Shown in pieces: positions 7,251-13,335 of a stretch of DNA of 22,311 nt. The notes below the pieces were generated by a model, which saw nothing but the letters and a program-made list of their open reading frames with translations, made no database searches and was not told the DNA's origin. Origin of the DNA: a virus; IMG/VR virus record IMGVR_UViG_3300042307_000376, positions 1-22,311 of that record; one strand, given 5' to 3'. Position 1 is the first letter of the stretch; every line of letters begins with the position of its first letter. The position numbers and the translations under genes were made by a program.

Positions 7251-7510
7251 CTTATCGTTTAGAGTTTAACGAAAAAACTCAAAATTTTCACTATGATAAT
7301 GGTACTCATGAAGAGAATACTTTTGGATGGGAAACAATAACAGAACATTGTACTGATTTTGAGCTTATGTTATTTGATGCTTACATTAATAGAAAAGGAG
7401 AAAAAAAACATACTACAAAACAATTAAGACAAAGCGTTATTGAAATAAAAAACTTTATTTATAATCTCGCAAATTATAACCTTGAAATTACTAGAAAAAA
7501 TGGAAACTAA
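7238..7510 (+). CDS. Unknown small protein, repeat-bounded cassette
   Basis: 90 residues, unrecognised, mixed-charge, with an aromatic-rich first half (YRLEFNEKTQNFHYDNG) and a helical, basic second half. It starts inside the stop region of the annealing-protein gene and ends inside the start region of the exonuclease gene; both junctions are the same 16-base sequence, so both this gene and its upstream neighbour end in Asn-Gly-Asn. Removing it through the repeats would join annealing protein and exonuclease perfectly, which suggests it was inserted between them. Confidence 0.6.
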   Translation: METKTYRLEFNEKTQNFHYDNGTHEENTFGWETITEHCTDFELMLFDAYINRKGEKKHTTKQLRQSVIEIKNFIYNLANYNLEITRKNGN

Positions 7511-10282: not shown

Positions 10283-10305
10283 ATATATATTTATATTCCA
10301 CATGT
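10283..10305 (+). repeat. Inverted repeat, left arm (23 nt)
   Basis: Ends in TATATTCCACATGT. It pairs with 10452-10474 at all but two positions, one of which is a G-T wobble as RNA. The TATTCCACA part is close to the classic DnaA box TTATCCACA (7 of 9). Confidence 0.85.
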
Positions 10306-10451: not shown

Positions 10452-10474
10452 ACATGTAGAATATAAATATATGT
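10452..10474 (+). repeat. Inverted repeat, right arm (23 nt)
   Basis: Begins ACATGTAGAATATAAATA. It is the reverse complement of 10283-10305 except at two positions; the arms are separated by 146 bases. Confidence 0.85.
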
Positions 10475-10488
10475 TTATTAAATTTAGT

Positions 10489-10521
10489 TTTGTTTAAGTC
10501 AAAAAATAATATATATTTTTG
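10489..10521 (+). promoter_or_regulatory. Bacteroidetes-type promoter, primase operon
   Basis: TTTG (10489-10492), a 21-base spacer and TATTTTTG (10514-10521), followed by CATT as in the two early promoters. A start site near 10527 gives a leader of about 140 bases before the gene at 10668, far longer than any other leader here. Confidence 0.7.
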
Positions 10522-10544
10522 CATTGAGTTCTTTAATTAATTAA

Positions 10545-10565
10545 ATGTGGTGTGAGAACCATTAG
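10545..10565 (+). CDS. Upstream ORF, MWCENH
   Basis: Six codons plus stop (Met-Trp-Cys-Glu-Asn-His), about 18 bases after the predicted start site. Its codons cover the 5' strands of both long-range pairings proposed for the leader, as expected of a regulatory leader peptide. No direct evidence of translation; a chance ATG is possible. Confidence 0.3.
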   Translation: MWCENH

Positions 10566-10667
10566 TTATAATCTTTTTAAATACCATTGTAGGTATTGCA
10601 AAAAAAGGAATAGTAGAAATATTATTCTGAATTCTCACTTGCAGTACTTACGATGGTTTTTTATTTT
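10545..10667 (+). promoter_or_regulatory. Structured leader with pseudoknot potential
   Basis: Three stems nest cleanly: GTGAGAA (10552-10558) with TTCTCAC (10632-10638), 7 bp, enclosing hairpin AATACC/GGTATT (10580-10585 with 10592-10597, 6-nt loop) and hairpin GGAATAGTA-GAAA-TATTATTCT (10607-10628, 9 pairs including two G-T, GAAA tetraloop). In addition CCAT (10559-10562) can pair with ATGG (10653-10656), or AACCAT with ATGGTT, crossing the first stem as a pseudoknot. A T-rich run (10657-10667) follows. It may be a translational or transcriptional switch for the primase operon, or an independent small RNA. I do not recognise a known riboswitch class. Confidence 0.5.
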
Positions 10668-10940
10668 ATGAACAAATTATGTCAAATTTGTAATTCTGAA
10701 AATATTGAAACTATTTTTAGTGATGGGTGTATGAACTATTTTTGTAAAGATTGCAATGCCTACAATGGTTCAGCTCACAATTATATTAGTACAGGATTAA
10801 AGTTTAGGTTCGGAAAATATAAAGGGAATTTAATAGAACTTTGTACAGATGCTAATTACCTTAAATGGATGCTAGAAGGTAGCAAAGTAGATAAAGGATA
10901 TAAAATAGCAATGATTAACAGATTAAACCAATTAAAATAA
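10668..10940 (+). CDS. Zinc ribbon plus DUF3820-like protein
   Basis: 90 residues from ATG 10668. An in-frame ATG at 10653 would add five residues but lies in the 3' strand of the leader pseudoknot. The N-terminus has two Cys pairs (C5-x2-C8 and C26-x2-C29) forming a likely zinc ribbon. The C-terminal half, FRFGKYKGNLIELCTDANYL followed by KWMLEG, matches the DUF3820 pattern (FGKYKG...YLKWLL) also found after some exonuclease domains. Probably binds nucleic acid. It starts the primase operon and ends 1 base before the primase-helicase gene. Confidence 0.68.
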   Translation: MNKLCQICNSENIETIFSDGCMNYFCKDCNAYNGSAHNYISTGLKFRFGKYKGNLIELCTDANYLKWMLEGSKVDKGYKIAMINRLNQLK

Positions 10941-10941
10941 C

Positions 10942-13335
10942 ATGCCACAAATAACAATATACAAATCATTTGGAGACGTTTCCGCTGGATATAATAGAGA
11001 TATATTTTTTATTCTCGATAGGATAAAAAAAGGAAGTTCAAAACAATTAGTTGAACAAATACGAAATTCGAGCGTAGAAGCCCAAAATTTGCTTAAAAAG
11101 AAATTACCAGCCATTCTATTCAGTGGGACATTTAGACAGCGAAATGACGCCTCTATTATCGAACACAGCGGTTTAATTTGTCTTGACTTTGATAAGTTTG
11201 AGAATAATGAGCTATTAAACGAATTTAGAGCCCAATTAATAGAAGATGCATATACGTTTAGTGTATTTACTTCACCTAGTGGAAACGGGCTTAAATGCCT
11301 GGTTAAAATACCAAATGAAATAGAGAATCATAAGTTATATTTTGAAAGCCTAAAAGATAAGTATAATTCAAAATACTTTGACATTAGTTGTTCAAATATT
11401 AGCAGAATTTGTTTTGAGAGTTACGATCCTGAAATTCACATAAACGAAGATAGTTTGACATGGATGGAAAAGAATGAGCCTGACATATACGAAGTTGAAA
11501 CGATAAACGTAAATATACCGATACGTTCAGAAAATAGAATAGTAGATAATTTGCGAAAATGGTTTACGAAATTCTCAATGAGTAAAGGAGAAAGGAATAA
11601 TAACCTATTCAAGTTAGCCATTGCATTCAATGATTTCGGAGTGCCAAAAAACGTATGCGAGAATGTATGCATGGAATATGTAAGAGACGACTTCCCTTTA
11701 CGTGAAATTCAGACTATAATCAAAAGCGCTTACCAACGAACTGGAAGTTTTGGAACTAAGTTTTTTGAAGATACTTTCACAAAGGATAAAATTGAAAAGC
11801 AAATTAGAAGTGGCAAGGACATCAAAGGAATTAAAAAACAATTTCCTGACTTACAGGAAAATGAGATTGAGAATGCCATCGAGAATGTAAAGGAAAATAT
11901 TAGTATAACTGACTTTTGGGAATATTCTAGCAAAGGCAATATTCAAATTTTACAGCATAAGTTTAAGTACTTCTTACAGGAACGTAATTTCTTTAAATTT
12001 TACCCAAGTGGAACGAATGGTTTTATCTTCATTAAGATATTTGAAAACTTACTTGAAGAGACTAACAAGGATATGATTAAAGATTATACCTTAAATTATT
12101 TAGAGTTCAAAGAAGATATAGGAATGAAGCCTTTTAACTACATGGCTGAAAAAACTAAATATTTCTCATTCGATTTCTTATCATTTTTAGAGACTAAAGA
12201 AGTCAAATTACTTGAAGATGACATCGATAATTGTTATTTGTATTTCAAAAATAAGATAGTATCAATATCAAAGAATGAAGTTAAACAAATTGACTACATT
12301 GATAGCGAAGGTTACGTATGGAAAAATCAAATAATAGATAGAGAATTCACATATATAAAAGTGGATAATTGCGTATTCTCTAAATTCTTATTTTACATAG
12401 CAAATGAGGAGACGCAACGATATAACTCACTACGTTCAGTTATTGGTTATTTATTGCACTCATTCAAAACAAGCGCAAATAACAAGGCTATAATTTTAAA
12501 TGATGAGACTATTTCAGATACTCCAAATGGGGGTAGTGGTAAGGGCTTGTTTTGGAATGCTTTAAGTCAAATGAAAAAACTTAATTCTTTAGATGGTAAG
12601 TCCTTTAGTTTTGGAGACCAGTTTAAGTATCAAACTATTTCAGCTGATTGTCAAATATTGGTATTTGATGACGTTAAAAAGAACTTTGACTTTGAGAGTT
12701 TATTTAGTTTGATTACGGAAGGTATTACTTTAGAGCGCAAAGGTCAACTAGCAATCAAGCTCCCAGTTAAAAAAAGCCCGAAAATATTAATTACAACGAA
12801 TTACACAGTTGGTGGCGTTGGTGGATCATTCGAGCGCAGAAAATTTGAAGTTGAATTCAGTAGTTTTTTTAATGCTAATAATACTCCATTACAAGTATTC
12901 AATCATTTACTATTTGATGAGTGGTCGGACATTGAATGGACTAAATTTGATAACTTTATGATTGATTGCGTTCAGTATTATTTAGCAAATGGATTAGTTC
13001 AGCACGAGTTTAAAAATCTTGAAGTACGTAAATTTATTAATAAGACATCAAGTGAATTTTACGAATTTTCTATTGAAGGGGAACATTTCAAAACGAATAC
13101 AAGAATTTATAATCAAGTTATATTTGAGGAGTTTTTAACAGATTATCAAGATTTCAGAAAGTGGTTAACTAGAAAGAAGTTCAAACAATGGATTGATACG
13201 TATGTAACATTTAAAGGACTTAACATTATTCACAGCAAAGATAACATGGGCGTATATTTTGAAATTATCGACAAAGTAAGCAAGCCTAAATACGAGATTA
13301 ATAATTTACCTATTGAAGACGGATTAACATTTTAA
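10942..13335 (+). CDS. Primase-helicase (VirE_N/BT4734 plus SF3-like)
   Basis: 797 residues. The N-terminal domain (about 1-165) carries the archaeo-eukaryotic primase-like pattern of the VirE_N/BT4734 family: LDFD (81-84), SPSGNGLK (111-118) and SNISRICF (151-158). A helical PriCT-like region (about 206-265) follows. The C-terminal half has a superfamily-3-type ATPase: P-loop NGGSGKG (529-535), Walker B ILVFDD (572-577), sensor TTN (618-620) and a likely arginine finger ERR (631-633). The P-loop ends in Gly where Ser/Thr is usual. It should prime and unwind at the phage origin, which probably lies just upstream. The family is common in Bacteroidetes mobile elements. Confidence 0.85.
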   Translation: MPQITIYKSFGDVSAGYNRDIFFILDRIKKGSSKQLVEQIRNSSVEAQNLLKKKLPAILFSGTFRQRNDASIIEHSGLICLDFDKFENNELLNEFRAQLIEDAYTFSVFTSPSGNGLKCLVKIPNEIENHKLYFESLKDKYNSKYFDISCSNISRICFESYDPEIHINEDSLTWMEKNEPDIYEVETINVNIPIRSENRIVDNLRKWFTKFSMSKGERNNNLFKLAIAFNDFGVPKNVCENVCMEYVRDDFPLREIQTIIKSAYQRTGSFGTKFFEDTFTKDKIEKQIRSGKDIKGIKKQFPDLQENEIENAIENVKENISITDFWEYSSKGNIQILQHKFKYFLQERNFFKFYPSGTNGFIFIKIFENLLEETNKDMIKDYTLNYLEFKEDIGMKPFNYMAEKTKYFSFDFLSFLETKEVKLLEDDIDNCYLYFKNKIVSISKNEVKQIDYIDSEGYVWKNQIIDREFTYIKVDNCVFSKFLFYIANEETQRYNSLRSVIGYLLHSFKTSANNKAIILNDETISDTPNGGSGKGLFWNALSQMKKLNSLDGKSFSFGDQFKYQTISADCQILVFDDVKKNFDFESLFSLITEGITLERKGQLAIKLPVKKSPKILITTNYTVGGVGGSFERRKFEVEFSSFFNANNTPLQVFNHLLFDEWSDIEWTKFDNFMIDCVQYYLANGLVQHEFKNLEVRKFINKTSSEFYEFSIEGEHFKTNTRIYNQVIFEEFLTDYQDFRKWLTRKKFKQWIDTYVTFKGLNIIHSKDNMGVYFEIIDKVSKPKYEINNLPIEDGLTF

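Follow-up and report, generated by a model that had tools for sequence, protein, structure and literature searches.

Antisense-controlled transcription attenuators and copy-control RNAs of plasmids (pIP501, pT181, and ColE1) combine loop-loop recognition with a terminator-like hairpin before a replication gene and with variable loop sequences. Purine, ZTP, and fluoride riboswitches are leader RNAs in which a tertiary loop contact is coupled to a terminator. The U-turn loops of antisense RNAs favor rapid recognition (PMC7430163, and in part general knowledge), and the role of the U-turn in pIP501 is cited in the same paper. In phages T4 and Aeh1, the expression of homing endonucleases (I-TevI, segB, and mobE) is limited by RNA hairpins, and terminators lying in the 5′ portions of mobE and segF have been reported (PMC2988022). 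Among the ornate structured RNAs of phages and bacteria, GOLLD, ROOL, and OLE are reported to form RNA-only homo-oligomers in a paper that also uses the term "kissing" (PMC12286853).

The DNA analyzed here (the window) is a whole viral record of 22,311 bases, a portion of a phage genome. Positions 10527 to 10667 of the window are read, with somewhat better than even confidence, as a cis-acting 5′ leader RNA belonging to a large undescribed family of phage RNAs and attenuating transcription of the gene downstream.

Genomic context of the leader

The leader lies in a 410-base intergenic region between the stop codon of a small gene (10257) and the replication genes. The small gene is described as single-stranded-DNA-binding (SSB)-like on the basis of an acidic DLPF tail together with its size and location; comparison of its protein with Pfam gave no match. 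A promoter had been proposed just upstream of the leader by an earlier sequence-only reading of this DNA, and one of the Bacteroidota type (TTTG-N21-TATTTTTG) was identified there, from which the RNA would start near 10527. The first gene downstream encodes 90 amino acids and showed weak matches, both below the cut-off, to an ExoX-like C-terminal domain and a zinc finger. It is followed by a replication primase. The features of the locus, in window coordinates, are as follows.

10489..10521, + strand: Bacteroidota-type promoter read from the sequence (TTTG, 10489-10492; 21-nt spacer; TATTTTTG, 10514-10521)
10547..10562, + strand: P1, the 5′ hairpin GTGGT-[GTGAGA]-ACCAT (MFE; covariation)
10552..10558, + strand: L1, kissing strand GTGAGAA, partner 10632-10638 (covariation)
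10583..10601, + strand: P2 5′ strand, ACCATTGTAGGTATTGCAA (MFE; covariation)
10607..10628, + strand: P3, hairpin with GAAA loop inside the P2 loop, 10607-10615/10620-10628 (MFE)
10632..10638, + strand: L2, kissing strand TTCTCAC in the P2 loop region, immediately preceding the P2 3′ strand (covariation)
10639..10657, + strand: P2 3′ strand, TTGCAGTACTTACGATGGT (MFE; covariation)
10658..10667, + strand: U-run TTTTTATTTT, directly 3′ of P2 and adjoining the start codon (sequence; intrinsic-terminator-like tail)
10668..10940, + strand: 90-aa gene, ATG at 10668
10942..13335, + strand: replication primase, 797 aa, with BT4734-like_N and PriCT_1 domains

Close relatives of the locus were collected through searches with the primase and the SSB-like protein. 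Among them, the 90-aa gene is variably present between the leader and the primase; it is missing in L002 and L003, where the leader lies directly upstream of the primase. A 21-nt inverted repeat (window positions 10285-10305 and 10452-10472; 95%, arms 146 nt apart) was also identified within a stretch of ~235 bp between the SSB stop codon and the leader promoter. This stretch is kept in L001 to L007 and absent from L014 to L031, in which the leader promoter follows immediately after the SSB stop codon, and it represents a candidate inserted element or replication origin.

Predicted fold of the leader

The sequence-only reading had described a structured leader, and the predicted MFE of the window leader was −37.5 kcal/mol compared with −19.3 kcal/mol for shuffled sequences (z, −5.2; 0/200 shuffles). 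The dominant element, overlooked by that reading, is the 19-bp stem P2 (10583-10601/10639-10657), followed by the U-run and then by the start codon at 10668. The three pairs of P2 that depart from Watson-Crick geometry all read G-U in the + strand, and the opposite strand would have A-C mismatches in their place; this points to selection on the + strand RNA. The loop of the small 5′ hairpin pairs with TTCTCAC in the P2 loop, such that the leader consists of two hairpins joined loop to loop with a terminator-like tail. The 7-bp pairing GTGAGAA/TTCTCAC (10552-10558/10632-10638) had been recognized correctly, but not as the outer stem enclosing the other elements; since P2 dominates the full fold, it forms a loop-to-loop pseudoknot. 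The nested two-hairpin structure drawn from that outer stem could at best be a transient intermediate of folding, at the stage when the transcript reaches no further than 10638, and folding of an RNA truncated there did not clearly recover it. Of its two hairpins, the 9-pair stem with the GAAA loop is present as P3 (10607-10615/10620-10628) and is specific to the subfamily to which the window belongs; the smaller one, AATACC/GGTATT, is absorbed into one strand of P2. Pseudoknot-free folding of two relatives (L015 and L046) gave two 7-nt loops that were perfectly complementary.

The T-run pointed out earlier lies directly after P2 and proved relevant, as the 19-bp stem followed at once by TTTTTATTTT has the form of an intrinsic terminator (a stable hairpin and an immediate U-run). 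A stem with a T-rich tail was found in all leader alleles tabulated, the T-run being part of the search descriptor, and some P2 stems are A/U-rich and may be weak terminators. The L1:L2 contact and the P2 terminator hairpin are mutually compatible rather than exclusive. No conserved antiterminator competing with the terminator was identified, and an alternative small hairpin involving the P2 5′ strand is confined to the window subfamily.

The position of P2 beside the start codon also bears on translational control, in which the hairpin would block ribosome binding in the manner of the T4 homing-endonuclease hairpins. The end of P2 falls within the ribosome footprint of the ATG, and homing endonucleases of T4 and Aeh1 are held down by hairpins over the ribosome-binding site (PMC2988022). 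However, the Shine-Dalgarno sequence and start codon are sequestered in the T4 type, whereas P2 includes neither the ATG nor the nucleotides immediately preceding it, the stretch that follows P2 has the U-rich character of a terminator tail, and a kissing design is unnecessary for blocking ribosomes. We regard control at translation as improbable.

Leaders at the SSB locus and in cultured phages

The relatives retain the design of the leader with other loop sequences. L001 to L003 carry GTGGAAG/CTTCCAC in place of the GTGAGAA/TTCTCAC of the window, and L044 carries GTGAGAG/CTCTCAC. In L006 and L007, the sequence is unrelated and the design is the same, with AAGAT-GTCGCAT-ATCTT preceding a stem whose loop contains ATGCGAC and which is followed by a T-run. 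Further L1 sequences at the SSB locus (CTGGTAC, ATGGTAC, CTAGTCC, CTTGTCC, GTTGCGG, GTTGCAG, GTGAGAG, GTGCGAG, and TTAAGGG) each find their exact complement in the next hairpin. At these SSB-anchored loci the leader remains upstream of an ORF, and the ORF varies (primase, DUF3987 helicase, ResIII helicase, DUF3223 protein, and others); Lin1244-like and HTH_36/Phg_2220_C proteins are additional products, likewise of replication or unknown genes, encoded downstream of leaders.

In two Flavobacterium phages, elemoF and elemoA, the leader is flanked by a tRNA-Met gene and the replication genes (loop pairs GTGGAGG/CCTCCAC and TGAGAGC/GCTCTCA), and its presence in cultured phages of the elemo group makes it experimentally testable. 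Together with the promoter type, these isolates suggest that phages of the leader family apparently infect Bacteroidota. A DNA similarity search with the leader in isolated phages returned weak short matches only, and an SSB scan across bacterial genome contigs gave no match.

Comparison of the relatives also clarified two further proposals of the sequence-only reading. A pairing of CCAT (10559-10562) with ATGG (10653-10656), suggested to cross the outer stem, is disrupted in L001, L003, and L044, and its ATGG is part of P2. The upstream ORF encoding MWCENH exists (10545-10565) and, since it overlaps P1 both in the window and in L004, could be imagined to act as a switch in which translating ribosomes open the leader. 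Conservation of the ORF did not hold up, as most relatives that carry this RNA lack the ORF or have another: no ATG-initiated ORF extends across P1 in L001, L003, L015, or L046, and those of L018 and L044 read MV* and ML*. Because the ORF and its peptide are not conserved, the idea that ribosomes expose TTCTCAC and ATGG is unsupported, and such a switch is scarcely credible.

Leaders of homing endonucleases and their recovery by search

A second leader was identified in the L006 record (7344-7419), immediately upstream of a GIY-YIG gene. A search with the endonuclease protein from this record was used to gather a set of GIY-YIG genes, and the arrangement was found in 19 of 58 upstream regions, compared with 3 of 1,160 shuffles, and in a few more by eye. 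One subfamily, family B, has enough conserved sequence around the loops to be retrieved with a DNA pattern. The genes downstream of family-B leaders are mostly GIY-YIG and in two cases of the HNH/NUMOD3 type, and a single 102-kb record carries four of these leaders; in L065, a leader lies upstream of a NUMOD4-HNH gene. The recurring design (a 5′ hairpin whose loop, mostly of 7 nt, is paired to the loop portion of a terminator-like hairpin, then a U-run and ATG) was found with ~43 different loop sequences.

A loose descriptor gave similar results in real and shuffled sequence and was too unspecific, and tighter criteria together with covariation were adopted. A strict scan with neither a promoter nor a start-codon criterion yielded 4 matches in real sequence (1.67 Mb) and 6 in shuffled sequence (3.34 Mb); thus, the strict descriptor alone is not specific, and the case rests on covariation and position. 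Each of the four real matches was preceded by TAnnTTTG and followed, 9 to 19 nt downstream, by the start of an ORF of at least 234 amino acids. TAnnTTTG was found upstream of 33 of the 35 distinct non-family-B leaders compared with 6.7% of shuffles, which is an upper figure because the list was pre-filtered with a looser promoter pattern, and in 13 of 19 members of the unfiltered homing-endonuclease set (counted by eye). In the table of 35 distinct non-B leaders, compiled with an ATG within ~33 nt as a filter, the distance from the end of the terminator-like hairpin to the ATG is 4 to 29 nt. A search of 395 Bacteroidota genomes with a family-B model under strict filters gave no match, an empty result that is uninformative about absence.

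These distances also bear on whether promoter, structured RNA, and terminator together make up an independent small RNA gene that acts on other targets and merely happens to lie before a gene. Such a gene would have its own promoter motif, a terminator-like end, and a compact fold of 85 to 140 nt, as these leaders do, and termination at the U-run would yield an RNA of ~135 nt, in keeping with this alternative. However, in the contexts examined a gene starts within those 4 to 29 nt of the terminator-like hairpin, which favors a cis leader, and an ORF also lies downstream in the four matches of the unfiltered scan and in the SSB-anchored loci. We consider an independent small RNA as improbable as translational control.

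A different motif, CTATTTATATTAAATAA, was identified upstream of the family-B leaders L167 to L169 (record G014) and of L224, L244, and L246. It also occurs elsewhere in the 50-kb record G014, on a single strand only, and is a candidate phage-specific promoter distinct from TAnnTTTG. Family-B leaders were further found in two contigs of record G022 (L254, C44:25467-25556; L255, C82:104-194) that had been binned to a bacterial metagenome-assembled genome and are probably phage; L255 precedes a gene for a cysteine-rich protein (MKICKKCLTEKSLDEF...).

Covariation

Covariation was scored in alignments of 30 family-B leaders (A2), the six leaders of the window subfamily (A3), and nine family-C leaders (A4). 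In A2, 97.9% of cells were paired, a percentage that, as in the other two alignments, is favored by reading the structures from alignment members, although this is insufficient to account for the double changes counted. The loop-loop helix of A2 was 99% paired, five of its seven pairs had changed on both sides, and all four Watson-Crick types were seen at two positions. The A2 score was 0.347 compared with 0.120 for shuffled and ≤0.078 for slid alignments, and none of 500 shuffles reached any of the five measures. A3 was 96.7% paired with a score of 0.360 (0.182 shuffled) and contained 11 pairs with changes on both sides, including three of the seven in the loop-loop helix (100% paired) and seven in the 19-bp P2 (99.1% paired); P3 was 90% paired with zero compensatory pairs. 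A4 was 100% paired, with a score of 0.700 (0.196 shuffled) and both-side changes in three of seven loop-loop pairs. P1 was 89 to 100% paired across the three alignments, with compensatory changes.

The compensatory changes in the loop-loop helix of A2, A3, and A4 are those of an intramolecular kissing-loop (pseudoknot) RNA and bear out the earlier description of the leader as pseudoknot capable. That description was to be abandoned if homologous leaders lacked compensatory changes; they were abundant.

In L061, L090, L096, and L110, an internal loop below L2 (AGUA/GAA) resembles the loop E (bulged-G) motif, and family C has UGAUA/UGAU at this position.

Loop sequences and exchange of the RNA

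Among 36 distinct 7-nt L1 loops (alleles that are not independent of each other), U was found at position 2 in 33 and a purine at position 4 in 29. This N-U-N-R pattern is U-turn-like, a hint of recognition that is sequence-specific and possibly in trans. In A2, the loops are variable and much of the scaffold is constant, part of it being fixed by the search pattern. The predicted pairing energy of alleles averaged −9.5 kcal/mol with self and −2.1 kcal/mol in cross combinations. Single phage records hold up to four leaders with different loop pairs (G014 and G024). Two leaders of G024, ATGCAAC and CTGCAAC, have six bases in common and would cross-pair, and given such near-duplicate alleles in one genome, no claim of orthogonality is made.

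The RNA was also found to be exchanged as a cassette. Between L018 and L015, the SSB genes share 88% and the next genes 87% identity, and the RNAs share 30%; the corresponding values for the window and L035 are 75%, 86%, and 32%. Conversely, the RNAs of L020 and L013 are 95% identical and precede different genes. With the RNA replaced between similar flanks and shared before different genes, it moves independently of both neighbors.

Loops that vary yet keep N-U-N-R, as the U-turn loops of antisense RNAs do (PMC7430163), together with swapping of the RNA between similar flanks and the presence of several loop pairs in one record, are what would be expected of an identity tag acting in trans. 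The terminated RNA would accumulate, and its L1 or L2 would pair with matching leaders while these are being transcribed from other genome copies or from a co-infecting relative, resulting in copy-number feedback or exclusion, much as plasmid antisense RNAs set incompatibility, and the loops would diversify against cross-talk. However, local pairing in cis should outpace pairing in trans, the two G024 leaders would recognize each other, the exchange is explicable by plain modular recombination, and the scaffold conservation of family B is partly built into the search pattern. An antisense promoter was also not enriched: TAnnTTTG, the promoter type scored, lay opposite 5 of 40 leaders compared with 15% of shuffles, and none was found in the tested stretch of the window. 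Although unlikely, an identity tag is the alternative to which we give most weight. In its more specific form, in which an allele would gauge how many copies of itself are present and shut out any co-infecting phage or homing element that bears the same loop, the proposal is somewhat less likely again; if true, it would constitute a phage incompatibility system made of a single RNA and would explain the loop diversity, the N-U-N-R rule, and the cassette exchange.

Proposed attenuation of the downstream gene

The promoter-like motif upstream, the start codon 4 to 29 nt downstream, and the contexts recovered by the unfiltered scan led us to read the leader as a cis-acting attenuator. Transcription would begin just 5′ of P1, so that the P1 hairpin is made first and the terminator-like P2/P3 afterwards, and pairing of L1 with L2 would then lock both loops. 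P2 and the U-run would act as an intrinsic-terminator-like element whose end lies 4 to 29 nt upstream of the start codon. The majority of transcripts would stop at the U-run as a short RNA of ~85 to 140 nt, and read-through would provide the mRNA. The loop-loop contact would fix the fold and, being compatible with the terminator, would most likely influence how fast or how stably the terminator forms, or else offer a surface to a protein. As an outcome, homing endonucleases and replication initiators would be produced at low or timed levels. The same sequence picture would result from a small RNA acting in trans or from translational control by a start-adjacent hairpin.

Read in this way, the leaders constitute a recurring regulatory RNA family of environmental phages, with ~43 loop alleles of which none is in Rfam, that links two dose-sensitive classes of phage genes, replication initiators and homing endonucleases. 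As any complementary loop pair that keeps the U-turn pattern seems acceptable, the family offers a natural set of many kissing-loop specificities. It also raises the question of why a structure acting in cis should diversify its recognition sequence so freely.

Comparison with known systems

Consistent with the earlier remark that the leader belongs to no known riboswitch class, Rfam 15 gave no match in the window at the gathering score and only tRNAs in ten relatives, and the best sub-threshold matches were far below the cut-off. A literature search, with thin coverage of subscription papers, found no description of the leader family. Like purine, ZTP, and fluoride riboswitches, it is a leader RNA with a tertiary loop contact and a terminator-like element; unlike in these, the loop contact is itself the variable part, and inspection across leader subfamilies identified no conserved ligand-binding core. 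It differs from the RNAs of pIP501, pT181, and ColE1 in that both loop partners lie on the same RNA strand and an antisense TAnnTTTG promoter is not enriched. GOLLD, ROOL, and OLE are large RNAs, whereas the phage leader measures ~85 to 140 nt and has its loop partners within one molecule. With the hairpins of T4 and Aeh1 it shares the position of a structured RNA immediately upstream of phage homing-endonuclease genes (PMC2988022). The T4 hairpins, however, lie over a Shine-Dalgarno sequence and are combined with late promoters, whereas the leader described here is promoter proximal, consists of loop-joined hairpins with covarying loops and a U-run before the ATG, and precedes replication genes as well. 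Attenuators and kissing loops are thus known kinds of element, and it is their combination with interchangeable loop pairs and with this set of genes that appears to be new.
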